Positions 30,261 to 47,750 of a stretch of DNA of 48,972 bases are shown here, piece by piece. Source of the stretch: Sphingomonadaceae bacterium (GTDB lineage Bacteria > Pseudomonadota > Alphaproteobacteria > Sphingomonadales > Sphingomonadaceae); contig PKED01000133.1 of assembly GCA_002863155.1 (NCBI GenBank), positions 1-48,972 on the forward strand, read 5' to 3'. The position numbers and the translations under genes were made by a program. Each line of letters begins with the position of its first letter. The stretch's first letter is position 1. The notes beneath the pieces were generated by a model. That model saw only the letters and a program-made list of their open reading frames with translations. It was not told where the DNA came from and made no database searches.

Positions 30261-31382
30261 ATGAAGGCGGCAATGACCGCCAGGGCCGACTTTCATCACG
30301 AAACCATCGGTGGCGCAGAGACGCTGCGGTTCGTCGGTCGATTGTCGATGTCGAGCCTGGGCGACTTTCCCGATCGGCTGCGCGCCTATAGCGGCCGGGT
30401 CGATCGGCTCGACCTGAGCGGTATCGAGCGGATCGACACCGTCGGCGCCTGGTTGATCCATCGCTTTGCCGCCGAACGCCAAGCGAAGATCGAGGGATTG
30501 AGCCCCGACGCGGCGCATTTGCTGGAACAGGTCGCATCGGCCGACCAGCATGTCGCGATGCGGCCCGAGCGCCAGCGCACGGTGATCCGCGTGCTGTCGG
30601 AAATCGGCGCGGCGACGATGGTGGCGCTGTCGACACTCTATGGGCTGCTCGGCTTTTTCGGGGCGACCGCGATCGCGCTCGGCAACGTGATCCGGCATCC
30701 GTCGCGCTTCCGCTTCAACGCGACGGTTCACCGTTTCGAAGTGGTCGGCATTTCGGCGCTGTGGATCATCGGGCTGATGAGTTTCCTGATCGGCATCGTG
30801 ATCGCCCAGCAGGGCGCGGTCCAGCTTGCCCAGTTCGGGGCGGAGGTTTTCACGATCAATCTGGTGGGTCGCATTACCCTGCGCGAGCTGGGCGTGCTGA
30901 TGACGGCGATCATGGTCGCCGGGCGGTCGGGATCGGCCTTTGCGGCGCAGCTCGGCACGATGAAGCTGACCGAGGAAATCGACGCGATGCGCACGATCGG
31001 CGTGTCGCCGATGGAGGCGCTCGTGCTGCCACGGGTGCTGGCCGCCGTGCTGATGATGCCGCTGCTCGGTTTCTATGCCTCGATCATCGCGATCATCGGC
31101 GGCGGGCTGTTGTGTTGGGGAACGCTCGACATTCCGCCGCCGACCTTCATCCAGCGCCTGCGTGAAGTCGTGCCGATCACCGATCTCTATGTCGGCTTGG
31201 TGAAGGCGCCGGTGTTCGGGATGATCATCGCGATCGCCGGCTGTTTTCAGGGCATGCAGGTGGAAGGCGACGCCGAACAGGTCGGCAGCCGGACGACGTC
31301 GGCGGTCGTTCAGGCGATCTTTCTCGTGATCGTGCTCGATGCGTTCTTCGCCGTCTTTTTCACCTGGCTGGGGTGGAATTGA
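30261..31382 (+). CDS. Mla/Mce-type ABC permease with fused N-terminal STAS domain (MlaB-MlaE)
   Basis: A 373-residue protein. Residues 1-100 form a STAS (MlaB-like) domain: ETLRFVGRLSMSSLGDFPD, LDLSGIERIDTVGAW. Residues 110-373 are the MlaE permease, with LGVLMTAIMVAGRSGSAFAA, QLGTMKLTEEIDAMRTIGVS and ATSAVV-type ending. In E. coli MlaB is separate; here it is covalently joined. The stop overlaps the ATG of the ATPase gene (TGATG), beginning a tightly coupled operon of permease, ATPase, MCE protein and lipoprotein for phospholipid traffic between the membranes. Confidence 0.93.
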   Translation: MKAAMTARADFHHETIGGAETLRFVGRLSMSSLGDFPDRLRAYSGRVDRLDLSGIERIDTVGAWLIHRFAAERQAKIEGLSPDAAHLLEQVASADQHVAMRPERQRTVIRVLSEIGAATMVALSTLYGLLGFFGATAIALGNVIRHPSRFRFNATVHRFEVVGISALWIIGLMSFLIGIVIAQQGAVQLAQFGAEVFTINLVGRITLRELGVLMTAIMVAGRSGSAFAAQLGTMKLTEEIDAMRTIGVSPMEALVLPRVLAAVLMMPLLGFYASIIAIIGGGLLCWGTLDIPPPTFIQRLREVVPITDLYVGLVKAPVFGMIIAIAGCFQGMQVEGDAEQVGSRTTSAVVQAIFLVIVLDAFFAVFFTWLGWN

Positions 31383-32200
31383 TGGTCGAGTCGGTCATCA
31401 AGGTGCGCGGGCTCTCGACCAGTTTCGGCGAGCAGGTCGTTCACGAGAATCTCGATCTCGATGTTCGCCGGGGTGAGATTCTGGGCGTGGTCGGTGGGTC
31501 CGGCACCGGCAAGTCGGTGCTGATGCGGTCGATCATCGGCCTGCAGCGCCCCGATGGCGGCGAGGTGAGCGTGTTCGGCGAATCGACGATCGACCGCGAA
31601 GAAACCGAGACCGTCGACATCCGTCGCCGCTGGGGCGTGTTGTTTCAAGGCGGCGCGCTGTTCTCGACGCTGACCGTCGCCGAGAATGTGCAGGTGCCGA
31701 TCCGCGAATTCTATTCGGGTATCAACCAGGGCCTGCTCGACGAAATCGCCGCCTATAAGGTGGTGATGACCGGCCTGCCGGCCGATGCCGGGCCGAAATA
31801 TCCGGCCGAATTGTCGGGCGGGATGAAAAAGCGCGCGGGGCTTGCGCGCGCGCTCGCGCTCGATCCCGAGCTGCTGTTCCTCGACGAACCGACCGCCGGC
31901 CTCGATCCGATCGGCGCGGCCGCGTTCGACGAGCTGACGCTGTCGCTCCAGAAGACCTTGGGGCTGACCGTTTTTCTGATCACGCACGATCTCGACACGC
32001 TCTATGCGATCTGCGACCGGGTGGCGGTACTCGCCGACAAGCGGGTGATTGCGGTCGGGACGATTCCTGAACTGCTCGCGCTGGACCATCCCTGGATCCA
32101 GGAATATTTCAACGGACCACGCGGGCGCGCTGCGACCGCCACGGTCGAATCCGCCGGCCGCCGCGCCGCCGCCGAGGCCAATCGAGGGACCAGCGACTGA
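31382..32200 (+). CDS. Mla-type ABC transporter ATPase (MlaF-like)
   Basis: A 272-residue ATPase: Walker A GGSGTGKS, signature LSGGMKKRAGLARALA, Walker B LLFLDEPTAGLDP and H-loop LITHDLDTLY. The order VLFQGGALFSTLTVAENV is typical of MlaF. The start ATG overlaps the permease stop, and the stop overlaps the next ATG by one base. Confidence 0.95.
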   Translation: MVESVIKVRGLSTSFGEQVVHENLDLDVRRGEILGVVGGSGTGKSVLMRSIIGLQRPDGGEVSVFGESTIDREETETVDIRRRWGVLFQGGALFSTLTVAENVQVPIREFYSGINQGLLDEIAAYKVVMTGLPADAGPKYPAELSGGMKKRAGLARALALDPELLFLDEPTAGLDPIGAAAFDELTLSLQKTLGLTVFLITHDLDTLYAICDRVAVLADKRVIAVGTIPELLALDHPWIQEYFNGPRGRAATATVESAGRRAAAEANRGTSD

Positions 32201-33168
32201 TGGAAACGCGCTCCAACCATGTCTTTGTCGGTGCTGTCGTGCTGCTGTTGCTGGCGATGCTTGCGCTCTTCCTCGTCTGGCTGGCCCGGTTCAACAGCGC
32301 GACGGAGAAGGAATATGACATCTTCTTCAAGCAATCGGTCAACGGCCTGAACAAGGGGTCGAACGTGTCCTATGCCGGTGTCTCGGCCGGGCAGGTGAAG
32401 GAGATCGCGCTGTTCAAGGACGATCCGCAGTTCGTGCGCGTGCGGATCAATGTGCGCCAGGATACGCCGGTGCTGGAGGGAACCACCGCGACGATCCAGG
32501 GGGTCGGCTTTACCGGGGTCAGCGAGGTTCTGCTCGACGGGGCGATCAAGGGCGCGCCGGCCATTCGGTGCCCGGCCGAGAACCCGCAGAACAGCTGCCC
32601 GTTCGGCGTTCCCGTCATTCCGCCGCGTCAGGGCGGGCTCGGTGCCCTGCTGAATTCCGCGCCGGAGCTTCTCCAGCGGCTGTCGACGCTCGCCGCCAAG
32701 ATCACCGATCTGCTCAACGACAAGAATCAGGCGTCACTGTCGGGAATCCTGGCCAATACCAATCGCCTGACCAAGGCCTTGGCCGACCAGTCGCCGCAGA
32801 TCGGCGCGACGCTGAGCGAAACCCGCGCAACTTTGGGCAAGGTCGGTGCCGCTGCCGATCAGATCGCCACGCTGGCGGAGACGACCAACGGCGTGATGAA
32901 GGAAGATCTGAAGCCGGCGTCGGCCAAGCTGAGCAAGGCGATCGAATCGGCCCAGCGCAGCCTCGACGCGGTCGATGGACTGATCCAGGAGGCCAAGCCC
33001 GGCGTCCAAGCGTTCAGCAAGCAGACCGTGCCCGAAATCGGCCTGCTCGTCCGCGATCTTCGGATCATGTCGGCAGCGCTGACCAATGTCGCCGAAAAGA
33101 TCGACCAGGGCGGCGCCGGCGCGCTGCTCGGCCAGCCCAAGCTCCCTGACTATAAGCCCAAGAAATGA
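32200..33168 (+). CDS. MlaD-family protein (MCE domain)
   Basis: A 322-residue periplasmic lipid-binding subunit. An N-terminal transmembrane anchor (FVGAVVLLLLAMLALFLVWL) is followed by the MCE domain (residues 39-118: YDIFFKQSVNGLNKGSNVSY, AGVSAGQVKEIAL, and VEGTTATIQGVGFTGVSEV-like segment). A long helical C-terminal part rich in Ala, Thr and Leu follows, longer than E. coli MlaD. ATGA overlap with the next gene. Confidence 0.94.
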   Translation: METRSNHVFVGAVVLLLLAMLALFLVWLARFNSATEKEYDIFFKQSVNGLNKGSNVSYAGVSAGQVKEIALFKDDPQFVRVRINVRQDTPVLEGTTATIQGVGFTGVSEVLLDGAIKGAPAIRCPAENPQNSCPFGVPVIPPRQGGLGALLNSAPELLQRLSTLAAKITDLLNDKNQASLSGILANTNRLTKALADQSPQIGATLSETRATLGKVGAAADQIATLAETTNGVMKEDLKPASAKLSKAIESAQRSLDAVDGLIQEAKPGVQAFSKQTVPEIGLLVRDLRIMSAALTNVAEKIDQGGAGALLGQPKLPDYKPKK

Positions 33169-33770
33169 GGCCCGCGATGCCCCGACACCTGACGCGCCTG
33201 CCGCTGCTGTTCGTCTTCTTGCCGCTTGGCGCGTGCATCAGCCTGACGGGCAAGCCGCCCGCAATGCTGCTGACGCTGATGCCGAGCGCGTCGCCCGCCG
33301 TCGGTGCCACGCTCGATTCGAAGACCGCGAAAACGATCACGCTGCAAGTGCCGGTCGTGCCGGCGGCGATTGCCGGGCCGCGCGTGCCGGTAATGACGGG
33401 GGCGACCACGATTGCCTATATCAAGGGTGCGGTATGGTCCGAACCGCCGGCGCGGTTGTTCGCCCGGCTGATGGCCGATACGGTCGCGGCGCGGACCGGG
33501 CGGGTCGTGCTGTCGAACCAGCAGAGTTTTGCCGATCCGGGCGCCAGGCTTTCGGGCGAATTGCGGACTTTCGGCATCGATGCCGCGCGCAGCCAGGCAG
33601 TGGTGGTGTTCGAAGGCACGCTGGTACGCGATGGCGCAAAGACCTTCGAAAAGCGCCGCTTCGAAGCGCGCGAACCGATCGGCGCGATCGCACCGGAAAG
33701 CGCCGGCACCGCGCTCAACCAGGCCGCGAACCGCGTAGCCGCAGAGGTTGCCGACTGGGTCGGTCGCTAA
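33165..33770 (+). CDS. ABC-type transport auxiliary lipoprotein (PqiC/LpqL-like)
   Basis: A 201-residue product with a lipoprotein signal ending in the lipobox LGAC (residues 21-24). The mature domain matches the ABC transport auxiliary group found with MCE operons, including ARLSGELRTFGIDAARSQAV and an Ala-rich C-terminal helix. It is the last gene of the operon. Its stop TAA overlaps the TAG stop of the convergent isomerase gene (CTAA at 33,767-33,770). An internal ATG at 33,177 could also serve as start. Confidence 0.88.
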   Translation: MRPAMPRHLTRLPLLFVFLPLGACISLTGKPPAMLLTLMPSASPAVGATLDSKTAKTITLQVPVVPAAIAGPRVPVMTGATTIAYIKGAVWSEPPARLFARLMADTVAARTGRVVLSNQQSFADPGARLSGELRTFGIDAARSQAVVVFEGTLVRDGAKTFEKRRFEAREPIGAIAPESAGTALNQAANRVAAEVADWVGR

Positions 33771-34752: not shown

Positions 34753-34843
34753 GGAGCGGTGGCCGAGTGGTCGAAGGCGCTCGCCTGGAAAGTGAGTATA
34801 CGTCAAAAGCGTATCGAGGGTTCGAATCCCTCCCGCTCCGCCA
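34753..34843 (+). tRNA. tRNA-Ser (GGA)
   Basis: Class II tRNA with a long variable arm. Acceptor GGAGCGG pairs with CCGCTCC, discriminator G, and CCA is encoded. The anticodon loop CTGGAAA gives anticodon GGA. The T arm reads GAGGGTTCGAATCCCTC. Confidence 0.97.
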
Positions 34844-36765: not shown

Positions 36766-38424
36766 TCAGTTCGACCAATAGGCATATTCCTGGCCCTTGC
36801 GCCACGGCGTGTTGAGCGGCACGTCGATGCGGATCGGCGCTTCGACCAGCGCGGGCCACATCGGGCGCTTCTGCATGCGGTCGTGCGTGGCGATCAGGCG
36901 CCGCATCACCGCCACCCGATCGGGCGCGCTGGCGGCGAGATTGCGGTGTTCGGTCGGATCGGTGGCGAGGTTGTAGAGCCATTGCCGGTCCGGCTTACCG
37001 GCGATCTGGAGTTTCCAGTCGCCTGCGCGCACGGCCTTGTTCTCGCCCGATCGCCAGAACAGCAGCCCGTGCGGGGCGGCGTCGATCGTTTTGTCTGCAG
37101 GCCCCAGCAGGCTGACGCCATCGATCGTCCGATCGGCGGGCAGTGGTGCGCCGGCGGCGGCGGCGGCGGTTGCGAAGATGTCGAGATGGTGAGCGGGGCC
37201 GGCCAGTCTGGTCTCCGCCCTGATCCGCCCCGGCCAGCGCAGGAAAAACGGCACGCGCAAGCCGCCCTCGAAATAGGTCGCCTTGTAGCCGCGAAACGGC
37301 GCATTGCCGTCGGCGATGCCGGTATACCAGGCGGCGCCATTGTCGCTGGTGAAGATGACCAGTGTATTGTCGTCGATGCCTTGTTCCTTCAGCGTTTGCA
37401 TCACCCGGCCGATGCCACGGTCGAGCTGGCGGATCATGGCGCCGTAGACGCGCTGGGTGTGATCCCGGATCTGCGGCAGCGCGTCGTAATCGGCCTTGGT
37501 CGCTTGAAGCGGCGTGTGCGGCGCGTTGTAGGCGAGGTACATGAAGAATGGTCGATTGCGATTGGCCTTGATCGCCGCGACCGCATTGTCGGTCCAGTAA
37601 TCGGTCAGATGCCCCTTCGGCGCGAACCGCTGCCCGCCATTCCACTGCACGGCATAGGGCAGGTTGGGCCAAAGGAACCGGTCGATCGGATCCCAGGGCA
37701 GCTTGGCGTTGACGACGTTCGGGTCGTTCTGATCCATGTACATCCCGCCGCCGGCCAGAAAGCCGAGCGCTTCGTCGAATCCTTGTCCGTTGGGTTGAAG
37801 CGCGCGCGCTTCGCCGAGGTGCCACTTGCCGATCTGAATCGTATGATAGCCTCGGCTTTTGAGCAGTTCGGCGATGGTCATTTCGCTTTGCGGCATGCCC
37901 ATGTCGGCATAATCGATCAGCCCCTGCGTCCGCTCTTCGTGAAAGATCGGGCGGGGCCGCCCATCGGGCGCGGGCCCTTCGCTTGCCGAGACGGCGCGCG
38001 CAAAGACGGTTGGCACCGCCGTGAATTCGAAGCCGAAGCGTGTCGGATAGCGGCCGGTCATGATCGCCGCCCGCGACGGGCTGCACGTCGCATTGGCGGC
38101 ATAGCCGATGTCGAAGCTTGCCCCCTCATGGCCGATCGCATCGATATTGGGCGTCGGCACAGCACCTCCCGCCACGCCGCCCCCAAAGAAGCCGATGTCG
38201 TTATGCCCCAGATCGTCGGCCAGGATGACGATGATATTGGGTGGCCGCGCCCCTGCGGAAGGCGTCGATGGTCCCTTCGACCAGATGATCGGGTGGTTGG
38301 GCCGGATCGGATCGCGCCACCGGGCGATGATCCCGGGAATATGGTATTTATAGTGCTCGAACACCGCGTAGCCGACGCCCGCAAGCGCCGCCACCGTCCC
38401 CAGCCCGATCCAAAGCCGCCGCAT
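36766..38424 (-). CDS. membrane-anchored sulfatase (type I, formylglycine-dependent)
   Basis: A 552-residue arylsulfatase-family hydrolase. One N-terminal transmembrane segment (MRRLWIGLGTVAALAGVGYA) would anchor it with the catalytic part in the periplasm. The metal site begins at ADDLGHNDIGF (Asp70, Asp71), and the modification site is CSPSRAAIMTGR, with Cys114 as formylglycine precursor. GKWHLGE and PNPF-type later motifs fit. AAGGGGA seven bases upstream supports ATG 38,424. It should depend on one of the two FGE genes downstream. Substrate unknown. Confidence 0.93.
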   Translation of the reverse strand: MRRLWIGLGTVAALAGVGYAVFEHYKYHIPGIIARWRDPIRPNHPIIWSKGPSTPSAGARPPNIIVILADDLGHNDIGFFGGGVAGGAVPTPNIDAIGHEGASFDIGYAANATCSPSRAAIMTGRYPTRFGFEFTAVPTVFARAVSASEGPAPDGRPRPIFHEERTQGLIDYADMGMPQSEMTIAELLKSRGYHTIQIGKWHLGEARALQPNGQGFDEALGFLAGGGMYMDQNDPNVVNAKLPWDPIDRFLWPNLPYAVQWNGGQRFAPKGHLTDYWTDNAVAAIKANRNRPFFMYLAYNAPHTPLQATKADYDALPQIRDHTQRVYGAMIRQLDRGIGRVMQTLKEQGIDDNTLVIFTSDNGAAWYTGIADGNAPFRGYKATYFEGGLRVPFFLRWPGRIRAETRLAGPAHHLDIFATAAAAAGAPLPADRTIDGVSLLGPADKTIDAAPHGLLFWRSGENKAVRAGDWKLQIAGKPDRQWLYNLATDPTEHRNLAASAPDRVAVMRRLIATHDRMQKRPMWPALVEAPIRIDVPLNTPWRKGQEYAYWSN

Positions 38425-38500
38425 CGCCGGATCCCCTTCGGCGATCATCTTGCCAAATGGCACGGTAAACGCCAATAGTTTGTTCAGCGGAGTGATGATC

Positions 38501-38872
38501 ATGGGCAAAGCGATCGCGCGCGGTTTTCTTGTCGTCGTCGGCGTGCTGTCGCTGGTCAACTTCGCAGCCGTCTGGTTCGCGCTGGATCTGGTCGCTCAGC
38601 GGCTTGGGACGCCCGCGCGCGATGCGCTTGCCGAATCGACCCTGCGCGGCGACCTGGGGGCGCTGTTCGGCATGTTCGGCATTCTTGCGATCCTGGCCGC
38701 TATCCGCGACGATCGTCGGCTGTTGATCGCGCCGATGCTGCTGCCCGCGCTGGCGGTCGCGGGACGGCTGCTAACCTATGCGCAATCGCCCACGCCTGCC
38801 GCCGTGCCGCTGATGGCTGTCGAGGCATTGGTCCTGGGGGGCGTGCTGCTGGCGCGGACGCGCCTCGGCTAG
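38501..38872 (+). CDS. small integral membrane protein (DUF4345-like)
   Basis: A 123-residue protein with four predicted helices: ARGFLVVVGVLSLVNFAAVW, GALFGMFGILAILAAI, RRLLIAPMLLPALAVAGRLL and a C-terminal VEALVLGGVLLA. Helix count and size resemble DUF4345/DUF4149-type proteins, but I am not sure of the family. GGAG precedes the ATG. It is divergent from the sulfatase, and its TAG stop overlaps the convergent DUF2855 stop. Confidence 0.75.
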   Translation: MGKAIARGFLVVVGVLSLVNFAAVWFALDLVAQRLGTPARDALAESTLRGDLGALFGMFGILAILAAIRDDRRLLIAPMLLPALAVAGRLLTYAQSPTPAAVPLMAVEALVLGGVLLARTRLG

Positions 38873-39942
38873 AAGGACAGGATCACGCCGCGATCAGGCG
38901 GCGTCGACCCGGCCACCATATCGGCATAGGCGGCGGCGATCGCGTCCGCGCCTTGCGATGCGGTCACCGTCATGCGGGCGGCTAGGACGGCGCAGGCGGC
39001 GATGTTCGCCTCGACCGCGCGGCGCATCAAGACTCCCGCGCCCCAGTCCGCATCGCGCTTGGCGATCTGCGACGGGGCGAAGAAGAAGGCCGGCCGCGCG
39101 CCGGGCAGATCCCTGGGTGCGCGATCGGCGCCCCAATGCGTCGCACCGACGCCGATACTGGCTTTCAACTGCTCGCCGAAATGGTGATGGACGGCGGCCA
39201 CGATCGTTCCGTCGCCCGACATGTCGACGAATACGCTCCGGCGCGCGCGGTCGAGCGTGTCGATCGAACCATAGTCGATCACTCGGTCGTAAAGCCCGAG
39301 CCCCTCGACAAAGCCGATGTTGCGCGCCGATGTCAGCCCGATCACCTGCTGCGCGCCGCGCTGACGCAGGTAGAAGGCGAGGCCGAATGCGGTCTTCGAC
39401 GATGCACTGCCGATGATGACCTGGTCCGCGCCGAAGCCGCCATTGTCAGCGATGTAATCGTCGATGACATAAGATGTCGTCAGCAACGGAAACATCAGGC
39501 TGCGTAGATCGGCGATGTCGGCGAGCGGGGCAGGATCGTCATTCGCCCGCGCGTACATATTGTAGACATAGGGCAGCTCGCGGCGGTGTGCGATGCCGTC
39601 GGTGATGCCGTTCGCGCTCACTTTCGACGGCGCCATCACCAGATCGGACGCCATCGGGAAAAAGCCCCAGTAACAGTCTCCAATGCCCACACCATCGACC
39701 CGGCTTTCGGTCACTTCGCCAAAGCCCCATACCGGCACGCAGCCCCAGCCGTCGTCATGATCGGGGAAGAACCGCCAGTAACCGATCGCCTCGCCCGAAA
39801 GGGCGTAGCTGATATTGTTGGCGGTGAGCGCGAAGCGGCGGGTCGCCACGCGGATCTGGCCGTCGTCGAGGGGCGCTTCATCACGTTGCACGATCTTCGC
39901 CTCGTCGATGCGGGCGCGATTGACGATTAGCTTGGTGGTCAT
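38869..39942 (-). CDS. DUF2855-family protein
   Basis: A 357-residue soluble protein. It opens TKLIVNRARIDEAKIVQRDE and contains RFALTANNISYALSGEAIGY, VPVWGFGEVTESRV, and a nucleotide-binding-like stretch QVIIGSASSKTAFGLAFYL, followed by TSARNIGFVEGLGLYDRVID. The layout resembles a medium-chain dehydrogenase/quinone oxidoreductase without its zinc ligands; the family function is unknown. The ATG at 39,942 fits the family start. It follows the FGE gene on the same strand after 83 bases, so an operon is likely. Confidence 0.85.
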   Translation of the reverse strand: MTTKLIVNRARIDEAKIVQRDEAPLDDGQIRVATRRFALTANNISYALSGEAIGYWRFFPDHDDGWGCVPVWGFGEVTESRVDGVGIGDCYWGFFPMASDLVMAPSKVSANGITDGIAHRRELPYVYNMYARANDDPAPLADIADLRSLMFPLLTTSYVIDDYIADNGGFGADQVIIGSASSKTAFGLAFYLRQRGAQQVIGLTSARNIGFVEGLGLYDRVIDYGSIDTLDRARRSVFVDMSGDGTIVAAVHHHFGEQLKASIGVGATHWGADRAPRDLPGARPAFFFAPSQIAKRDADWGAGVLMRRAVEANIAACAVLAARMTVTASQGADAIAAAYADMVAGSTPPDRGVILSF

Positions 39943-40025
39943 GTCGGCACAGCTCCCCGCGCAATTCTCGGCGACCGGCTTTAGCGTGGCGGCGCGCCTG
40001 CGGCCATCATCTTCGGGTGAAGGAC

Positions 40026-40820
40026 TCAGCCGGCATCGGCGGCCAGACGGAACCCGATATGGGCGCTGGTGAAATCGGGTGCGACGGCGATCCGCGCCGC
40101 CGGGCGATAGCGCTGGCAATATTCGGCAGCGCACAGGAACGAACCGCCCTTCAAAATGGCCAGCGTATCGGCGCCGGGCGCCGGTGCGCAGCATCCGCCG
40201 GGCGGCAGCGCCGCGCTGGTCGTCGTCCATTCCCAGACATTGCCGATCATGTCGTCGAGGCCGTAGCCATTGGCCGGGTAGGTGCCGACCGCACTTGTTC
40301 CCGGGGCGCCACGCGCGTGCCACCAGGGAAAGCTGCCTTCCCAGATATTGGCTTGCAGCATATCGCCCGGCATCGGATCGTCACCCCAGGCATAATCGGT
40401 ATCGACCAGCCCGCCGCGCGCCGCGACTTCCCATTCCGCTTCCGACGGCAGCCGCGCGCCCGCCCATTCGGCAAAGACCTCGGCATCGGCCTGCGCGACA
40501 TGGGTGACGGGATGGTCGGGCGGGCCGTCGCGCCAGCTTGCGTCCGCAGCAAAGCGCCACCAATGCCGCGGATCGCCAAGGTCGACCGGCCCGTTGGTCA
40601 TGACGAAGATGCTCGATCCGCCGGCGCGCTCGGCGGCGGTGACGTGACCGGTCGCAGCGACGAAAGCGGCAAAGGCTTTGCGTGTCACCGGCGATGCGGC
40701 GATCCGGAACGCCGGAAGCGCGACCTGCCGTGCCGGGCGCTCCTCGGGATAATGCCGGTCCGACCCCAGCTGCCAGCGACCGGCGGCAATGGTCACGTCC
40801 GGGCGCCACACGTCAGCCAA
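40026..40820 (-). CDS. formylglycine-generating enzyme (SUMF1 family), predicted cytosolic
   Basis: A 264-residue protein of the aerobic sulfatase-activating family, which turns the Cys of CxPxR into formylglycine using copper and O2. Diagnostic segments are RLPSEAEWEVAARGG, MIGNVWEWT and GGSFLCAAEYCQRYRPAAR, where Cys230 and Cys235 match the copper-binding Cys pair (C272/C277) of the Streptomyces enzyme. No signal peptide. The start is probably TTG 40,820 with AAGGGG eight bases upstream. A 14-codon open frame with its own AAGGAG site ends across this start. Confidence 0.9.
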   Translation of the reverse strand: MADVWRPDVTIAAGRWQLGSDRHYPEERPARQVALPAFRIAASPVTRKAFAAFVAATGHVTAAERAGGSSIFVMTNGPVDLGDPRHWWRFAADASWRDGPPDHPVTHVAQADAEVFAEWAGARLPSEAEWEVAARGGLVDTDYAWGDDPMPGDMLQANIWEGSFPWWHARGAPGTSAVGTYPANGYGLDDMIGNVWEWTTTSAALPPGGCCAPAPGADTLAILKGGSFLCAAEYCQRYRPAARIAVAPDFTSAHIGFRLAADAG

Positions 40821-40857
40821 CCAGCGCCCCTTTCACTTGAGCAAACGGCGCGGTCAT
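40813..40857 (-). other. possible short leader reading frame before the FGE gene
   Basis: A 14-residue frame, MTAPFAQVKGALVG, begins at ATG 40,857 with a strong AAGGAG site and ends with a TGA that overlaps the first codons of the FGE gene in another frame. It could couple translation into the TTG-started FGE, or mark an older start lost to a frameshift. Composition is not informative at this length. Confidence 0.3.
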
Positions 40858-40934
40858 GCATCCACTCCTTGACTCGGTGCGGCTTCACGCTGTTACTGGC
40901 ACCCAGAATGCCGATACATTGCGGGGGGAGCAAG

Positions 40935-41243
40935 ATGGCGGACCTGAACGAGGTGGCGCAGATCATGGCAGCGAACAATGCTTTCCTGCCCGGCAAGCGG
41001 ATCAAGTTCGATTTCGGGGAGGACGGCGCAATCCTGCTCGATGGCGTGGCGGCGGCAGTGACGACCAGCGATGGCGATGCCGACACGATGATCAGGATGA
41101 GTTTCGACAATTTCAAGAAAATGGCGAAGGGCGAACTCAACGCCGCGACCGCGTTCATGATGGGCAAGATCAAGATTTCAGGCGACATGGCGCTGGCGAT
41201 GCAGCTCCAGTCGGTGACGTCGAAGATCAAGCTCGGTGGCTGA
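40935..41243 (+). CDS. SCP2 sterol-carrier-domain protein
   Basis: A 102-residue stand-alone SCP2 domain: IKFDFGEDGAILLDG, then DTMIRMSFDNFKKMAKGELN and the family ending AFMMGKIKISGDMALAMQL. SCP2 proteins bind sterols, fatty acyl or other hydrophobic ligands. GGGGGGAG before the ATG is a strong ribosome site. Its last eight bases overlap the start of the Tat-exported sulfatase, so the two are coupled; this ties a hydrophobic-ligand carrier to a sulfatase. Confidence 0.93.
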   Translation: MADLNEVAQIMAANNAFLPGKRIKFDFGEDGAILLDGVAAAVTTSDGDADTMIRMSFDNFKKMAKGELNAATAFMMGKIKISGDMALAMQLQSVTSKIKLGG

Positions 41244-43629
41244 CACGCCGAAAAAGGGCATTGATCGCCGCTCGCTGCTGATCGGCGGCGCAGCGGGCGC
41301 GGTCGGCGCGGGCGCGGTCGCGGCGGGTGGCGTCTATGTGAAGGGGCAATTGACGCCCTTCATCCCGCCAGCCCCCGTGGCCGAGGGCACTCCGCCGCAG
41401 ATCGCCGAATCCTATGCCGCTTCCCGCCCGAGCGGCGATAAGCCCATGCAGGCGCCCGTTGGCGCGCCCAATATCCTGGTCATCATTCTCGATGATGTCG
41501 GCTTTGCCGATCTCGGCTGTTACGGCAGCGAGATTCCGACCCCGGCAGTCGATGCCCTTGCGAGCCATGGCCTGCGCTACGCCAATTTCCGTACGACCGC
41601 GATGTGCTCACCCACGCGCGCGGCGTTTCTGACCGGGCTCAACCATCACAACGCCGGGATGGGCTGGCTCGCCGATATCGACAGCGGCTTTCCGGGCTAT
41701 CGCGGCGACCTGACCCGCGATGCGGCGACCTTGCCCGAAGTGCTGCGCGACGCGGGCTATGGCACCTATCTGATCGGCAAATGGCACGTGAACCAGGCCG
41801 CCTCGAATGGGCCGACGGGGCCGTTCCACAACTGGCCGACGCAACGCGGCTTCGACCATGCCTATTGGTTTCAGGGGCATTCGACCGATTACTGGCGGCC
41901 GGGGGCGCTGTTCGAGGGGACGACGCTGGTCGATATTTCCGCGCGCGCCGATGCCGACCGCTATTACGCCACTGACGATTTCGCCGATCAGGCAGTGCGC
42001 TACATCAACACCCACCGCGCGGTGACCCCCGACAAGCCGTTTTTCGTCCAGCTCGCCTTTTCGGGCGCGCATTCGCCGCTTCATGCAAAGCCGGACGACC
42101 GCGATGCCTTCAAGGGGCAATATGACCGGGGCTGGGACGTGGTGCGGCGCGAGCGGCTCGCACGCCAGCAAGCGATGGGGCTGGTCGCGCCGACGACGAA
42201 GCTGCCGCCGCTGTCGAAGGGCGCTGAACCCTGGAACCGGCTCACCCCCGAGCAGCGCCAGGTCTATGCACGTTACATGGAGGTCTATGCCGGCGTGATC
42301 GCCGGGCTCGACCGCGCGATCGGACGCGTGACGGCGGCACTGGCCGAAGCGGGCATCGCCGACGACACGTTGATCCTGCTCTTCTCGGACAATGGCGGCA
42401 GTCCGGAAGGCACACCCACCGGCACGCCCAACATCTTTGCCGCCGCGCTTGGCCGGCCGATCCCGCTCGCCGATGCCGCCAGACTCGGCCCGGTAATGGG
42501 CGAGAAAGAAACCTTTCCCCATTATCCGATGGGCTGGGCAAACGCGTCGAACACGCCGTTCCGGCTGTACAAGCAGTACACCAGCCTGGGCGGCGTCGCC
42601 GATCCGCTGATCGTCAGCTGGCCGAGGGGCATCGCGGCGAAAGGCGAAATCCGCCGCCAGTTCGTCCACGTCATCGACATCTTCCCGACGCTGCTGGAAG
42701 TGGCGAAACTGAGGCGCCCCGACCTCTATCAAGGGCGCCGCCAGAAGCCGGTCGACGGGGCGAGCTTCGCTGCGACCTTCGCCAGCCCGCAGGCGCCGAC
42801 CCGGCGCGAGCAATATTATGAGCTCGGCGGCTACCGCGCCTATGAGGACGGCAAATGGCGGCTGGTAACGATCCATGAGCGCGGCGGCGATTTCGCGGCC
42901 GATCATTGGGCGCTCTATGACCTGTCGACCGACCCGAACGAGTTGGTCGATCTGGCCGACAAGCATCCCGACATCGCCTCCGCAATGAAGGCCAAATGGG
43001 ACGCGGCGGCGCGGGCGAACAATGTCTATCCGCTCGACGACCGCAACCTCATCATCAAGATGAGCCAGCAGCGCACCAAGGAAATCCGCCCGCTATGGGA
43101 GTTCCGCCCGCCCGTTCCCTATCTGCCGGTCGAGGCATCGCCGCTGGTGTGCGGGCTCGACCATAGTTTCGAGATCGTCATCGATCGCCCCGCAGAAGTG
43201 CGCGACGGTGTGCTCGTCGCGCATGGTTCGGCGCCGGCTGGTTATGTCATTTACCTGAAGGACGGCGCGTTGTTTTACGAATCGAGCCTGATTCCCTGGT
43301 CCGAACGCATTGCGGGCGGGCCGGTCCCGGTGGGCCGATCGACGATCCGGTACCAGCAGAAGATGACGATACGTCCTTTCGAGGGCGAGGGCGCGCTGTT
43401 CGTCAATGGCGAGGCGCGCGGGCGGCACGTGTTCGACCGGATCATCGCGTCGCCCAGCTATGACGGGCTGTCGATCGGGCGCGATTTCGGGGCACCGGTT
43501 TCTACCGCTTATGCCGGGCAGAATCCGTTCGCGGGCACGATCGAGCGCGTGACGATCAAGGTCGATCCGCGCGCGCCGACCTTCCAGGAAATGCGCCGCT
43601 TCATTCAGGCAATGCAGATCCGCGCCTGA
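41236..43629 (+). CDS. Tat-exported arylsulfatase
   Basis: A 797-residue sulfatase from a GTG start inside the SCP2 gene. Residues 10-32 form a twin-arginine signal (DRRSLLIGGAAGAVGAGAVA). Metal ligands start at ILDDVGFADLGC (Asp86, Asp87), and the modification motif is CSPTRAAFLTG (Cys124). GKWHVNQAAS and LFSDNGGSPEG follow. The length and the C-terminal lectin-like tail (about 630-797) place it with large arylsulfatases. Tat export means it folds, and probably gets its formylglycine, in the cytosol. The last 29 bases overlap the end of the convergent FGE lipoprotein gene. Confidence 0.94.
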   Translation: MADTPKKGIDRRSLLIGGAAGAVGAGAVAAGGVYVKGQLTPFIPPAPVAEGTPPQIAESYAASRPSGDKPMQAPVGAPNILVIILDDVGFADLGCYGSEIPTPAVDALASHGLRYANFRTTAMCSPTRAAFLTGLNHHNAGMGWLADIDSGFPGYRGDLTRDAATLPEVLRDAGYGTYLIGKWHVNQAASNGPTGPFHNWPTQRGFDHAYWFQGHSTDYWRPGALFEGTTLVDISARADADRYYATDDFADQAVRYINTHRAVTPDKPFFVQLAFSGAHSPLHAKPDDRDAFKGQYDRGWDVVRRERLARQQAMGLVAPTTKLPPLSKGAEPWNRLTPEQRQVYARYMEVYAGVIAGLDRAIGRVTAALAEAGIADDTLILLFSDNGGSPEGTPTGTPNIFAAALGRPIPLADAARLGPVMGEKETFPHYPMGWANASNTPFRLYKQYTSLGGVADPLIVSWPRGIAAKGEIRRQFVHVIDIFPTLLEVAKLRRPDLYQGRRQKPVDGASFAATFASPQAPTRREQYYELGGYRAYEDGKWRLVTIHERGGDFAADHWALYDLSTDPNELVDLADKHPDIASAMKAKWDAAARANNVYPLDDRNLIIKMSQQRTKEIRPLWEFRPPVPYLPVEASPLVCGLDHSFEIVIDRPAEVRDGVLVAHGSAPAGYVIYLKDGALFYESSLIPWSERIAGGPVPVGRSTIRYQQKMTIRPFEGEGALFVNGEARGRHVFDRIIASPSYDGLSIGRDFGAPVSTAYAGQNPFAGTIERVTIKVDPRAPTFQEMRRFIQAMQIRA

Positions 43630-44551
43630 CCGTGCGAAAGCCGATATGCGAGGCGCCGGTATCGGGTGGGCCTTCCTCGCGCGCGGCGGGGCGATAGCGG
43701 TAGCAGTAATTGTCGGCGCACAGATACGACCCGCCCTTGATGACATGGCCGCCGCCGCCCATCGTGCCACTCGTCCATTCCCAGACATTGCCCGCCATGT
43801 CGTAGAGTCCGAAGCCGTTCGGCGCGAAGCAGGCGACCGGCGCGACCTTCGCCTTGTAGCCGTCGCCGCCGGTATCGGCGACCGGGAAGGGGCCCTGCCA
43901 CACATTGGCGCGGGCAGGACCGCTGCCGTCGCCGCCCGGGCGCTGATCGCCCCAGCTATATTGCGCGGCGACCAGCCCGCCGCGCGCGGCAGCTTCCCAT
44001 TCGGCCTCGCTCGGCAGGTCGCGGCCTCTCCAGCGGGCATAGGCAAGCGCGTCGGCATGGCCGATATGGACGACGGGTTCGTGCGCGTGCCCGGTGATGT
44101 CGCTGTCCGGTCCTTGCGGATGTCGCCAATCGGCGCCCGGAATGATCTTCCACCAGCTTGCCGGACCGGTCGGGCGCTCGCCCGATTTCAGCGGCACGAA
44201 CACCAGTGACGACGGCACCAGGCTGTCGCGCGCGATGCCGGGGTAGAGCGCCGGGTCGGGCGCGCGCTCGGCAAGCGTGCGATAGCCGGTCGCGGCGACG
44301 AAGGCGGCGAAGTCGGCATTGGTTACTTCGGTCTGGTCGATCCAGAAGCCTTGGAGGTCGACCGGGTGCGGCGGCCCCTCTTCGGGCCGCTCGGGCCGCG
44401 CGCCGATGAGATAGCGGCCGGGCGGTATCCAGCGCATGCCGGCCTCGGTGCCGGGTTCAGCAGCCAGGCGGGCAGGGGGCTTGCACATCCGCTCGGGCGC
44501 CGCCGTCGAGCAGCCCGAAAGCAGCGCGAGCGCGGCGAGCCACTGCTTCAC
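43601..44551 (-). CDS. formylglycine-generating enzyme-like lipoprotein (SUMF1 family)
   Basis: A 316-residue second SUMF1 protein, with a lipoprotein signal: LLSGC lipobox, Cys14. The catalytic domain is complete, with RDLPSEAEWEAAARGG, NVWEWTSGTM and GGSYLCADNYCYRYRPAAR (Cys278 and Cys283, same spacing as the copper pair). A lipid-anchored FGE in the periplasm would act on sulfatases after or during export, in contrast to the cytosolic copy. Its GTG start overlaps the stop of the metallo-hydrolase gene (GTGA). It is the last gene of a three-gene operon. Confidence 0.9.
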   Translation of the reverse strand: MKQWLAALALLSGCSTAAPERMCKPPARLAAEPGTEAGMRWIPPGRYLIGARPERPEEGPPHPVDLQGFWIDQTEVTNADFAAFVAATGYRTLAERAPDPALYPGIARDSLVPSSLVFVPLKSGERPTGPASWWKIIPGADWRHPQGPDSDITGHAHEPVVHIGHADALAYARWRGRDLPSEAEWEAAARGGLVAAQYSWGDQRPGGDGSGPARANVWQGPFPVADTGGDGYKAKVAPVACFAPNGFGLYDMAGNVWEWTSGTMGGGGHVIKGGSYLCADNYCYRYRPAAREEGPPDTGASHIGFRTVRRGSALPE

Positions 44552-45627
44552 CAGCGTTTCACGGCCTCGATCCGGTCGCTTCCCGCCGGCAGCAGGATTT
44601 CGTCGCCGTCATGGCCGACGATCACCCGTCCCTTGAAGCGCGTCCGTGCGTCACCGACAAACGGCACCTCAAGGATCGAATAGGGCAGAGGCGGCACGAT
44701 GTGCGCCAGCATCAGCATCTTCACGCCCGCGCGTTCGGCAGTGTCGGCGGCCTGTTCGGGCGTCGCGTGATAGCTTTTGATGTCGTTGAAAATCTGCGCG
44801 ACATTGGCGCGCCCCGCGCGGATGGCGGCATCGTGCTGCATCGCCACCATCCGCGTGCTGAGCGCTTCATGGACGAGAACATCGGCGCCCTTCGCCGCCC
44901 GCTCGACCGACGTCGTTGCCGCGGTGTCGCCGGTGATCACGACGCGGCGCCCCTTATAGGCAAAGACATAGCCATAGGCGGGCGCGACCGGGCGGTGATC
45001 GACCGCAAAGGCGAAGACCTGGAGCCCGTTCGCCGCATAGATCATCCGTGGCTTGCCATTGCGGGCGGCCTCGGCTGGATGCGGTTCGAGCCCGAAGCCG
45101 CCCGGCGGCACGATCTTTGGCCCATGATGCGCGATGCGATAGCCGCGGTCGAGCGCATAGGCCTGGTTGAACCCCGCGGTCACCGCCTCGACCTCCGGTG
45201 GGCCGTAGACGGGAAGCGGCGTGGCAGCAGCACTTGTCGCCCAGCGCTGAAGCATCAGCGCGCCGAGCGAGTCGATATGGTCCGAATGGAAATGCGTCAG
45301 GAACACTGCCTCGACGCGCCCCGCGCCATAGCCGATGCGCGACAGGTTGCGCACCCCGCCTTCGCCGACATCGACGACGAAGACATGGCGACCGGCGGTG
45401 ACCACGGTGCAGGGTCCGGCACGATCGGGCGACGGCATCGGCGAGCCCGATCCGCACAACCCGGCGCTCAGGCCGTCGGGGCGGTCCTTGAACGGATCGG
45501 CGGTGAGAGCCGCGTCCATCCCGCGCTCGAAAAGCGCGATGGCGATGCGTTCACGGAACAGCCACGCGCCGGCCGCGATGACGCCGGCGACGAGCGCGAG
45601 CCACGCCAATGCCTTGATGATCCTCAT
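44548..45627 (-). CDS. membrane-anchored metallo-beta-lactamase-fold hydrolase
   Basis: A 359-residue protein with an N-terminal helix (IKALAWLALVAGVIAAGAWL) and a metallo-beta-lactamase domain. The zinc motif is HFHSDH (His112, His114, Asp116, His117), with VFLTHFHSDHIDSLGA upstream; VITGDTAATTSVERAA and LMLAHIVPP supply later ligands. It belongs to the RNase Z/arylsulfatase-type group of this fold, and the group includes arylsulfatases of unrelated chemistry, so an ester or sulfate-ester substrate is possible. Both ends overlap neighbours (ATGA, GTGA). Confidence 0.9.
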   Translation of the reverse strand: MRIIKALAWLALVAGVIAAGAWLFRERIAIALFERGMDAALTADPFKDRPDGLSAGLCGSGSPMPSPDRAGPCTVVTAGRHVFVVDVGEGGVRNLSRIGYGAGRVEAVFLTHFHSDHIDSLGALMLQRWATSAAATPLPVYGPPEVEAVTAGFNQAYALDRGYRIAHHGPKIVPPGGFGLEPHPAEAARNGKPRMIYAANGLQVFAFAVDHRPVAPAYGYVFAYKGRRVVITGDTAATTSVERAAKGADVLVHEALSTRMVAMQHDAAIRAGRANVAQIFNDIKSYHATPEQAADTAERAGVKMLMLAHIVPPLPYSILEVPFVGDARTRFKGRVIVGHDGDEILLPAGSDRIEAVKRW

Positions 45628-46934
45628 GCCATCCTCCGGTCGATCGGCGGCAGGCCGGTCGCATCGCGCAGGTCGTCCTCGACCATCCACAGCCGGTCCT
45701 GCCCCCACCAGCCGGGGCGGTCGTCGACCTGGAAGCTCGGGACGCCCCACAGGCCCAGCGCGAACATATCGGCGCGGTTCGCCTCCGCCACCGCGCGCCA
45801 ATTGTCGTCGGCGAGCGCCGCGCGCACCTGATCGGGCGTCACGCCGACGCGGGCCGCGACCTTCATCAGCCCGGCATCATTCGTCATGTCGATCCCGTCG
45901 GCAAAGGCGCCGCGCAGGAAGGAGATCGCGAAATCGAGGCCTTTGCCGGTCGGTATCACCTGATGGAGCACCGCCAGTCCGCGCTCGACGCCCACACCGA
46001 CAGGATCGTGGATCGTGCCGAAGGCGATGCCGTGGCGGGTAGCCTCGCGCTTGGTGTCGAGCGTGATGTACATCCGCTTGGCGCGTGGTACCGGCAGCCC
46101 GCGCATCACCATCGGCAGCACGAATTTGAGGTTGAGCGTCGCGCCATACGCCGCCGCCAGCGCGCCGATCCGCTCGGCCGCGACCAGCGAATAGGGCGAT
46201 CGGAACGACAGGTAACAGTCGAGCCGTGGCGGCGTCGCGGCGGCGGGCGGGGCAGCGGGATAAGGGCCGGGATCGAGCACCGGGCAAAGCATCGATGAGG
46301 CGCCGCCGTCCTCTGCCGCCAGCCTGGCCTCGAGATGATGGAGCCGGTCGACGCCCCAATAGAATTCGCCCTCGAAATGGGTCATCGAGCCGAGATAATG
46401 GCCGAGCCGCGTTCGCTCCTCCGATCCGTCGGCAAGCGCCTTGGCGGCGTCCCCCTCGCCATGGACATCGGCAAGCGCTGCCAATGCGGAGTCGACATCG
46501 TCATGCCGAAGCGCGAGCATGATCGCGGTGAGCGCGGCACCAGCCTGCTCGCCAGCCAGGGCCGCCGCGGCAATGCCGTGCGCGCGCGCCAGCTGCGCCG
46601 CTGTGGCGGGCGGCGCGCCAACGCCACTGCCGAGCCCGAGCGCAGCCTCGACTCGCGCGGCGTCGCGCATGGCATAGGCGGCGAGGCGGTCGGCCTCCGG
46701 CGCGGCGGCGGCATCGGGTGGCGGCACCAGCCGATAGGCGACGGCAAGCCCGAAGCGGTCGGCAAGGCGACCCAGGAAATGCAGCGCCGCCGGGCCATAA
46801 GGATCGTCGATCTGAGCGAAAAACGTCACCGCGCGATCGGTTCGTTTCAGTCGCCGGGCGGCGCGGTGGGTGCGTCGTCGTGCATCGCGCAGCGCCGCGC
46901 TCGTGAGGGCGGTTGTGAGCAGACGCTGCATCAT
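45624..46934 (-). CDS. tandem DsbA-fold protein (2-hydroxychromene-2-carboxylate isomerase-like)
   Basis: A 436-residue protein with two thioredoxin-like DsbA/GST-kappa domains. The C-terminal one starts LDCYLSFRSPYSLVAAERIG and has LPMVMRGLPVPRAKRMYI; SPYS carries the Ser used by HCCA isomerases with glutathione. The N-terminal one starts TFFAQIDDPYGPAALHFLG, where Asp-Pro-Tyr-Gly replaces Ser-Pro-Tyr-Ser, so it may not be catalytic. ATG 46,934 has AAGGA seven bases upstream; ATG 46,940 is too close to it. First gene of an operon with the metallo-hydrolase and the FGE lipoprotein. Confidence 0.85.
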   Translation of the reverse strand: MMQRLLTTALTSAALRDARRRTHRAARRLKRTDRAVTFFAQIDDPYGPAALHFLGRLADRFGLAVAYRLVPPPDAAAAPEADRLAAYAMRDAARVEAALGLGSGVGAPPATAAQLARAHGIAAAALAGEQAGAALTAIMLALRHDDVDSALAALADVHGEGDAAKALADGSEERTRLGHYLGSMTHFEGEFYWGVDRLHHLEARLAAEDGGASSMLCPVLDPGPYPAAPPAAATPPRLDCYLSFRSPYSLVAAERIGALAAAYGATLNLKFVLPMVMRGLPVPRAKRMYITLDTKREATRHGIAFGTIHDPVGVGVERGLAVLHQVIPTGKGLDFAISFLRGAFADGIDMTNDAGLMKVAARVGVTPDQVRAALADDNWRAVAEANRADMFALGLWGVPSFQVDDRPGWWGQDRLWMVEDDLRDATGLPPIDRRMA

Positions 46935-47039
46935 GCCCATTCCTTAACGGCTAATTAGGCACGGCACACGCCAAAAGTTTGGATCGGTGAACGTGGCAAT
47001 GGGCAAAGTCGGGTGCGGCCGGATAGGATGATTGTGGCG

Positions 47040-47054
47040 TTCGAAATGTCCGAA
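47040..47054. promoter_or_regulatory. possible TetR operator between the divergent genes
   Basis: The 200-base divergent gap holds a near-palindrome TTCGAAATGTCCGAA with five of seven positions pairing. It lies 80 bases before the TetR start. Short imperfect palindromes occur by chance, so support is weak. Confidence 0.2.
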
Positions 47055-47135
47055 ACTTGCTGTCCGCTGCCCCATCGGCCACGCTCGCGCTGGACGCTGG
47101 TTTTGCGCCGCGATAGGTTTCTTTGGGAACACACC

Positions 47136-47750
47136 ATGTCAAGCCAAGCAATGCCTCGCCCCGGGACGTCCGGACCGATCGACGGGCGTCATGCGCGCAG
47201 CATCGCGACGCGTGACAAGATCGTCACTGCGCTGCTCCGGCTGGTCCGCGAAGGCGATGTTTCGCCCAGCGCCGCGCGCGTCGCGGAATCGGCGGGCGTC
47301 GGTCTGCGCACCGTGTTCCGTCATTTCGACGAGATGGATACGCTCTACCGCGAGATGTCGAGCGCGATCGAGGCGCAGGTGATGCCCGTCGTCCTGAAAC
47401 CCTATGAGGCGAGCGACTGGCGCGGCCGCCTTCGCGAAATGACCGATCGTCGTGCCGCGATCTACGAAACGATCATGCCCTACCGCGTATCGGCGAGCAT
47501 CAAGCGCTTCAGCAGCCAGTTCCTGATGCAGAATTACCAACGCAATCTGCAACTCGAGCGAACCTCGCTCGTCGCGGTGCTGCCGCAGACGATCCTTGAC
47601 GATGCGCCGGTCGTCAGCGCGCTCGAAGCCACGCTAAGCTTCCAGTGCTGGCGCCGCCTGCGCCACGATCAGGCGCTGACGGTCGATGAAGCGCGTGCGG
47701 TGATCGGCACGCTGCTCGACGCGTTGCTGGCGCGGATCGACGCTGCCTGA
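47136..47750 (+). CDS. TetR-family transcriptional regulator
   Basis: A 204-residue regulator. The N-terminal helix-turn-helix is clear: TRDKIVTALLRLVREGDVSP, RVAESAGVGLRTVFRHFDEM. The C-terminal ligand domain is all-helical without recognised signature. ATG 47,136 is chosen; an in-frame extension to 47,013 is not protein-like. Divergent from the DsbA-like/metallo-hydrolase/FGE operon, which it probably represses. Confidence 0.88.
   Translation: MSSQAMPRPGTSGPIDGRHARSIATRDKIVTALLRLVREGDVSPSAARVAESAGVGLRTVFRHFDEMDTLYREMSSAIEAQVMPVVLKPYEASDWRGRLREMTDRRAAIYETIMPYRVSASIKRFSSQFLMQNYQRNLQLERTSLVAVLPQTILDDAPVVSALEATLSFQCWRRLRHDQALTVDEARAVIGTLLDALLARIDAA

Follow-up and report, generated by a model that had tools for sequence, protein, structure and literature searches.

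The closest described counterparts of the locus reported here are the formylglycine (FGly)-dependent sulfatases of SulfAtlas family S1, among them the Pseudomonas aeruginosa arylsulfatase 1hdh, listed as S1_4 (PMC5066984), and the formylglycine-generating enzymes (FGEs) of the SUMF1 type. In the excerpts of the literature on which we draw throughout, cysteine-type bacterial sulfatases are placed typically in the cytosol (review PMC3920027), the carbohydrate sulfatases of gut Bacteroides that are discussed are mostly periplasmic (PMC10154612), S4 sulfatases are reported in Novosphingobium and Sphingobium (PMC5066984), and GldK/PorK of Bacteroidota are described as lipoproteins with the FGE fold (PMC12421860). 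We analyzed contig PKED01000133.1, positions 1-48,972, of a Sphingomonadaceae bacterium (assembly GCA_002863155.1), hereafter the window, in which a block of ten genes (36766-47750; Table 1) encodes two predicted cysteine-type sulfatases (genes S1 and S2), two FGEs (FGE1 and FGE2), a metallo-hydrolase (MBL), a tandem DsbA-fold protein (HCCA2), a TetR-like protein, a DUF2855 protein, a stand-alone SCP2 domain and a small membrane protein (MemP). A real, conserved and recurring family of sulfatase and FGE loci is defined by S1, and the block represents one of its versions. The members of this family probably strip sulfate off an organic molecule, judging from the encoded domains, and we consider it an evenly balanced proposition that the block is a version of a recurring locus for organic sulfate ester use in which the location of the FGE is tied to the export of the sulfatase.

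Domain and motif jointly identify S1 and S2 as predicted FGly-dependent sulfatases: both score above the Pfam cut-off for PF00884 (197 and 206 bits, respectively), and both contain the CxPxR modification motif (CSPSR in S1, CSPTR in S2), as in SulfAtlas family S1. These are the only two PF00884 matches at E<=0.001 in the assembly (3.29 Mb, 99.94% complete). Among the solved structures, S2 is nearest to 7all and to 1hdh, and S1 to carrageenan sulfatases and an S1_19 sulfatase. The two differ from the SulfAtlas enzymes in that S1 starts with a membrane anchor (N-termini were read by eye), whereas S2 carries a Tat signal with the twin-arginine motif ahead of a hydrophobic stretch (IDRRSLLIGGAAGAVGAGAVAAGG; pattern and eye).

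Both FGEs align across almost the entire domain of solved FGEs, FGE1 to SUMF1 and FGE2, with residues 8-260 of 261, to 6muj, and both retain the Cys-x4-Cys pair, which in FGEs is catalytic and copper-binding. What distinguishes the block from known SUMF1/FGE systems is the presence of two FGEs side by side, one of them of the lipoprotein type. FGE1 begins with a signal peptide that includes a lipobox cysteine (KQWLAALALLSGC, LLSGC; pattern and eye); FGE2 has no room for a signal, since its domain starts some 17 residues after an in-frame stop. Unlike GldK/PorK, the NCBIfam family whose name says lipoprotein, FGE1 falls far short of the family cut-off (101.7 bits against 350). Among the matches listed in our search on exported and lipoprotein FGEs, the available excerpts name no lipoprotein FGE that matures sulfatases. 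FGE1 apparently resides outside the cell and FGE2 inside it, which seems to match the export routes of the sulfatases.

The locus family came into view when we examined the surroundings of the best 80 of 560 confirmed relatives of S1 from a genome scan, picked by likeness to S1. These loci belong to taxa including Sphingopyxis, Sphingomonas, Sandarakinorhabdus, Novosphingobium, Hyphomonadaceae, Phenylobacterium, Caulobacteraceae and Zavarzinia. Neighboring genes within 8 kb of S1 were grouped by single linkage, with the names of SDR (c6), c57, c58 and other unscanned clusters given by eye, and the resulting counts are lower bounds because some of the contigs are short. A TetR-like gene is present in 66/80 loci, an FGE in 44, a hydrolase of the haloalkane dehalogenase type (HLD-I) in 38, a second sulfatase in 37 and MBL in 28; less common are the membrane protein c7 (25), ECH (22), GST, DUF1330 and SDR (20 each), the small membrane protein c13 (17), HCCA (16) and MemP (10), and DUF2855 and SCP2 are found in just 3 and 2 loci, respectively. 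Three sets of control neighborhoods look different. Around DUF2855 genes of other family members, away from S1 (20 neighborhoods), there were 7 SDR genes and 1 GST but no TetR-like gene, FGE or HLD-I; around MBL genes without S1 (14), HLD-I, SDR and MemP were seen twice each, DUF1330, a sulfatase, a TetR-like gene and HCCA once each, and FGE never; around S2-like sulfatases without S1 (14), we found 5 SDR, 3 ECH and 1 FGE, and neither a TetR-like gene nor HLD-I. SDR and, partly, ECH are also frequent in the controls and so are not specific to S1 loci. Relative to S1, the partners occupy many states of offset and orientation (16 for HLD-I, 11 for the TetR-like gene), which indicates that the linkage survived rearrangement.

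The first-pass annotation of this DNA had grouped most of these genes as one unit, and the unit is right: the two CxPxR sulfatases, two full FGEs, SCP2, DUF2855, metallo-hydrolase, tandem HCCA-like protein and TetR-like protein are all there in open frames, both sulfatases, DUF2855, SCP2, FGE1, MBL and HCCA2 with Pfam scores above cut-off and FGE2 by alignment to a solved FGE. It had regarded co-occurrence at chance level in related genomes as one result that would undo the grouping; for the core (sulfatases, FGE, TetR-like gene, metallo-hydrolase and HCCA-type gene), co-occurrence around S1 is far above that in all three control sets. The emphasis placed on SCP2 and DUF2855 as linked partners is not borne out by the counts given above; of the co-occurrence with sulfatases expected for the FGE lipoprotein, DUF2855 and SCP2, that of FGE holds at the level of loci and that of DUF2855 only genome-wide. 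The FGE lipoprotein is the most informative part of what had been flagged.

The closest relatives of the block are two loci in Sphingomonas metagenome-assembled genomes (L101 and L102; handles with L denote loci, those with G genomes), where S1 is 79% identical and most of the block is kept. The gene order in L101 is HCCA2 (cut by the sequence end)-MBL-FGE1, S2-SCP2, GST-FGE2-c7-c13-DUF2855, MemP, S1; compared with it, the window lacks GST, c7 and c13 (L101:5654-8544, around FGE2). The representatives of c7 and c13 have no Pfam match. In L102, the TetR-like gene adjoins S2, and HCCA2-MBL-FGE1 is not in the stretch examined. Literature searches that covered sulfatase clusters of sphingomonads, type III sulfatases, the breakdown of chlorosulfolipids and exported FGEs gave, among the matches listed, nothing that corresponds to the S1 locus. 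The family offers a way into an uncharacterised pathway for organic sulfates.

S1 serves as the marker of the locus family. Of 179 genomes from the same bacterial family, 23 have a relative of S1 (E<=1e-80), 42 of MBL (1e-40), 75 of DUF2855 (1e-3), 80 of HLD-I (1e-60) and 4 of tandem HCCA2 (1e-30); S1 was also found in 24/385 genomes drawn from the class (E<=1e-130). Three other candidate markers were rejected: S2 as too broad (62/179 family genomes with a relative at E<=1e-60), DUF2855 with no sulfatase within 8 kb in 20/20 neighborhoods read, and MBL, which in several of its 42 genomes lies between the same two gene clusters.

We propose that FGE location follows sulfatase export. At the S1 loci read, there are 60 FGEs (59 distinct), of which 53 are lipobox-like (41 by script, 12 by eye), 3 have a hydrophobic stretch only, and 4 are signal-less, namely, those of the window, L101, L102 and L038. 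We then compared genomes, searching the 23 with S1 using FGE2 (E<=1e-25) and classifying by eye the N-termini of the sulfatases at the fetched loci rather than of every sulfatase per genome; G083, with an S1 match of 39%, was left out of the comparison and has an unsignalled FGE. In the remaining 22, an unsignalled FGE is present in 7/7 genomes with a Tat or unsignalled sulfatase and in 0/15 others (Fisher 5.9e-6, kinship ignored). Six of the seven have a Tat sulfatase (G000, G003, G097, G159, G101 and G163) and one (G155) an unsignalled sulfatase. The FGE of G157, missed by the pattern, is a lipoprotein by eye (ALQGC), and G150 has two FGEs, one signal-bearing without a lipobox and one with it.

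Under the reading that ties FGE location to export, an organic sulfate ester would reach the periplasm, where S1, S2 and, perhaps, the anchored MBL would remove the sulfate; the desulfated product would be processed further in the cytosol, with roles for the SCP2 lipid-binding domain, the HCCA-type protein and the DUF2855 reductase, and the TetR-like protein would sense the compound. Tat substrates fold prior to export. Two FGEs would be present because conversion of the cysteine requires an unfolded sulfatase: S2, as a Tat substrate, would fold in the cytosol and need the unsignalled FGE2, and the Sec-exported or anchored sulfatases would be served outside by the lipoprotein FGE1. If this is true, proteobacterial cysteine-type sulfatases can mature outside the cytosol, contrary to their placement in the excerpted review (PMC3920027), and a single block displays both solutions to maturation side by side.

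Several observations weigh against this reading. Six of the genomes (G003, G097, G159, G101, G163 and G155) have S1 and only an unsignalled FGE at E<=1e-25, and L102 keeps S1 with FGE1 not in the sequence stretch examined, so that a cytosolic FGE may serve S1 as well; with six of the seven genomes showing no detected lipoprotein FGE, the location rule is one-sided. L038, where an unsignalled FGE lies beside two Sec-type sulfatases, is a counterexample. The seven genomes come from three genera only (g1, g4 and g95), and the statistics ignore the tree. The choice of start affects the export class because several open reading frames (ORFs) extend further upstream. Export as such is not new, given the mostly periplasmic Bacteroides enzymes in the excerpts cited above. 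Finally, control by the TetR-like protein, the order of the steps and the substrate are matters that we infer.

The metallo-hydrolase may be a third sulfatase of the block, of family S4. It belongs to the metallo-beta-lactamase superfamily (70 bits, above the Pfam cut-off), and HxHxDH and further His/Asp residues, taken as metal ligands, are kept in 13/13 aligned sequences. Its best solved match is 8gyg 'Arysulfatase' (E=4.8e-36, profile), ahead of PNGM-1 and RNase Z; none of the papers searched contains '8GYG'. The identification as RNase Z was considered and dropped (best 189.4 bits against the NCBIfam cut-off of 363). Compared with S4 arylsulfatases, which it resembles in motif and in best match, and with RNase Z, MBL stands apart through an N-terminal hydrophobic stretch, scores below the RNase Z cut-offs and many copies outside sulfatase loci. 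Copies without S1 in L085, L086, L089, L090 and L094 share a gene neighborhood, with the flanks in L089 read as tsf and pyrH.

HCCA2 resembles 2-hydroxychromene-2-carboxylate isomerase and kappa GST in its DsbA fold. The DSBA domain is recognized in domain 2 (65 bits, above the Pfam cut-off), with no NCBIfam match at E<=0.001, and the AlphaFold2 (AF2) model (pLDDT 86.8) has as its best fold match 3fz5, a possible HCCA isomerase. In HCCA isomerase and kappa GST, a conserved serine is the active-site residue. Domain 2 keeps it (FRSPY), whereas domain 1 has Asp at that position in 8/8 aligned sequences; unlike the known enzymes, the window protein is of two domains, and single-domain versions occur in related loci.

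DUF2855 is predicted to be a zinc-free MDR-like NADP-dependent reductase. The PF11017 match (321 bits) is above cut-off, and the AF2 model, built from four sequences (mean pLDDT 62.5, with 71-93 in the ten-residue blocks of residues 161-260), matches PTGR1 and alkene and plant double-bond reductases with E down to 2.5e-11 but a TM of about 0.5. In contrast to the fold, which resembles that of zinc-free MDR alkene reductases, the sequence matches no solved structure significantly (best E 0.3 and 0.076). None of the papers searched contains 'DUF2855'. The model gives a first fold-based clue for the PF11017 family. Next to S1, DUF2855 is also found in L147, 53% identical to the window copy. Genome-wide, it is present in 22/23 carriers of S1 and 41/42 carriers of MBL against 75/179 overall (Fisher 9.5e-9 and 1.7e-18, kinship ignored), in 21/22 MBL carriers among S1-negative genomes and, by genus, in 12/13 S1 genera (8e-5). 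HLD-I correlates with DUF2855 as well (1.1e-17, kinship ignored), so shared ancestry may explain much of this co-occurrence.

The remaining genes are smaller. SCP2 is above the PF02036 cut-off (58.1 bits against 21.3), and relatives lie near MemP and S1 in three genomes of genus g4 (41% identity in the one read). MemP is below the cut-off for DUF4345 (PF14248; 23.5 bits against 26.5); a relative neighbors S1 in L101 and L102, where the two genes are divergent, and in L160, L161, L168, L170 and L180, where both lie on one strand. The regulator is labeled only 'TetR-like' because its shorter ORF scores 19.7 bits for PF00440, under the cut-off of 24 (E=7e-4), and the long ORF has no Pfam match at E<=0.001; the gene clusters with 85 genes of other S1 loci (single linkage). 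TetR-type proteins often sense ligands.

Alternative roles for the block differ mainly in the substrate. General sulfur scavenging, in which sulfate would be released from a broad range of aryl and alkyl sulfates when sulfur is limiting and the accessory genes would be detoxifying, fits the proximity of S2 to 1hdh-type arylsulfatases and the GST and DsbA-fold partners. A TetR-like gene in 66/80 loci argues against this explanation, and no sulfate or sulfonate transport gene was noticed among the gene calls of the block; we consider scavenging unlikely.

Quite unlikely, in our estimate, is the use of sulfated glycans, with S1 and S2 desulfating sugars and the block belonging to the periphery of a polysaccharide utilisation locus. 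A glycan substrate is weakly supported by the nearest solved relatives of S1, by c57, GH92-like by eye, in five Sphingopyxis loci, and by L144, which lies amid maltodextrin-like genes (by eye). However, the window block includes no glycosidase, lyase or SusC/D-like gene, by which such a locus would be recognized, and the recurring partners are instead HLD-I, GST, HCCA and ECH. The two Sphingopyxis loci that were read completely do not have the same glycan-type genes, and the other loci had no systematic glycan-gene scan. Given the maltodextrin-like genes in L144 and the GH92-like gene nearby in L132 (both by eye), the surroundings of the S2-FGE-TetR-S1 module vary.

The first-pass annotation favored a steroid or polycyclic aromatic sulfate, which S1 and S2 would desulfate and SCP2 carry, with DUF2855 and HCCA2 acting on the ring products. 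The resemblance of the DUF2855 model to enone and alkene reductases and of HCCA2 to HCCA isomerase is compatible with such chemistry, as is a salicylyl-CoA 5-hydroxylase-like gene (by eye) in 5/80 loci; this gene, of 760-785 aa, is near S1 in L133, L135, L136, L156 and L159, all Hyphomonadaceae/Caulobacteraceae. Against it, the cut-off for HsaD, which we used as the marker of 9,10-seco steroid catabolism, is reached in 0/22 S1 genomes (weaker matches in 4/22, best 198 of 400 bits) and HsaD has no match at E<=1e-30 in the genome of the window, a marker that alone does not rule out other steroid routes; furthermore, steryl-sulfatases rank only 12 and 21 among the solved relatives of S1 and S2, respectively, and SCP2 is linked to S1 in just two loci. 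A steroid substrate is, therefore, not supported, and we regard this pathway as decidedly unlikely.

A bold possibility is that halogenated sulfate esters are the substrate of the locus family, with the window copy lacking a linked dehalogenase. Chlorosulfolipids, as an example, are described from fresh-water chrysophytes and have been detected in coastal water, according to the excerpt of PMC13413282. HLD-I lies within 8 kb of S1 in 38/80 loci; its representative scores 478.6 bits for NF002043 (cut-off 265) and is close to haloalkane dehalogenases of solved structure (5esr, E=1.4e-138). The nucleophile pattern, which we take to be the mark of haloalkane dehalogenases, is found in 44/45 HLD-I copies. 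On the other side, looser base and cap Trp patterns match 37/45 and 39/45 copies, the window block has no HLD-I, the single copy of the genome being on another contig (C26), HLD-I is common in the family (80/179 genomes at E<=1e-60) and mostly away from S1, and it occurs near 2/14 MBL controls. We thus judge this substrate very improbable. The same holds for the broader proposal of a pathway, encoded by S1 loci and widespread in Alphaproteobacteria, for natural molecules such as chlorosulfolipids that have both sulfate esters and carbon-halogen bonds. In it, exported cysteine-type sulfatases, matured outside the cytosol by a lipoprotein FGE, would remove the sulfates, HLD-I with GST, ECH and SDR partners would act on the halogenated chain, and the window would hold a variant in which a Tat sulfatase comes with a cytosolic FGE of its own and a dehalogenase is not linked. 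A chance neighborhood with no shared function, which could still account for the seldom-linked SCP2 or DUF2855, has next to no probability overall and is contradicted for the core, whose partners return in varying order across the 80 loci, with few of them in the control sets.

Table 1. Features of the sulfatase block (coordinates are window positions)
Feature	Position	Strand	Basis
S1, cysteine-type sulfatase (CSPSR), N-terminal membrane anchor	36766..38424	-	PF00884, motif CSPSRAAIMTG, start from relatives; ORF open to 38559
Short stretch between divergent S1 and MemP, possible promoter region	38425..38494	.	Gene calls, revised S1 start
MemP, small membrane protein, DUF4345-like	38495..38872	+	PF14248 23.5 bits, cut-off 26.5
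DUF2855, predicted zinc-free MDR-like NADP-dependent reductase, no signal	38869..39942	-	PF11017 321 bits; AF2 model fold matches
FGE2, formylglycine-generating enzyme, no signal, presumably cytosolic	40026..40811	-	Alignment to 6muj, Cys pair kept
123-bp stretch between divergent FGE2-DUF2855 and SCP2-S2 units	40812..40934	.	Gene calls
SCP2, stand-alone domain, 102 aa	40935..41243	+	PF02036 58 bits (longer ORF)
S2, cysteine-type sulfatase (CSPTR), 797 aa, twin-arginine signal IDRRSLLIGG	41236..43629	+	PF00884 206 bits; nearest solved 7all, 1hdh
FGE1, formylglycine-generating enzyme, lipoprotein-type N-terminus (LLSGC)	43601..44551	-	PF03781 (FGE-sulfatase) 235 bits; SUMF1 alignment, Cys pair kept
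MBL, metallo-hydrolase (HFHSDH), N-terminal hydrophobic stretch	44548..45627	-	Pfam; nearest solved is an MBL-fold arylsulfatase
HCCA2, tandem DsbA-fold protein	45624..46829	-	DSBA Pfam (domain 2), alignment, AF2 model, fold match 3fz5; ORF open to 46940
321-bp stretch between divergent HCCA2-MBL-FGE1 unit and TetR-like gene, possible regulatory region	46830..47150	.	Gene calls
TetR-like regulator	47151..47750	+	PF00440 19.7 bits, below cut-off 24; single-linkage group of 86 genes

Gene starts and boundaries come from a gene caller made for this analysis, and several were revised: DUF2855 does not take up its whole 484-aa ORF, the start of MBL was moved to the position in Table 1, and that of the TetR-like gene to about 47151 from 47013. 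S1 was first called from 38502, with the initial 26 residues having no counterpart in aligned relatives (row ends were set by the search match); the S1 genes called in L101 and L102 begin at the methionine equivalent to 38424, within one residue. MemP (about 120 aa) is an extra gene that the first-pass annotation did not list. HCCA2, MBL and FGE1 overlap by 4 bp each, and the end of SCP2 overlaps the start of S2 by 8 bp; FGE2 and SCP2, HCCA2 and the TetR-like gene, and MemP and S1 are divergent pairs. The intergenic stretches of the window contain no distinctive inverted repeats, and a palindrome search for a common TetR operator in 86 upstream stretches found no shared element (TAATTA in 2/86). 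Outside the block, ARAGORN places a tRNA-Ser(GGA) gene at 34753-34843, some 2 kb to the left of the block and next to a gene for glutamate-tRNA ligase, and at 30261-33770, four successive genes on the + strand resemble, by eye, an Mla-type ABC lipid transport operon.

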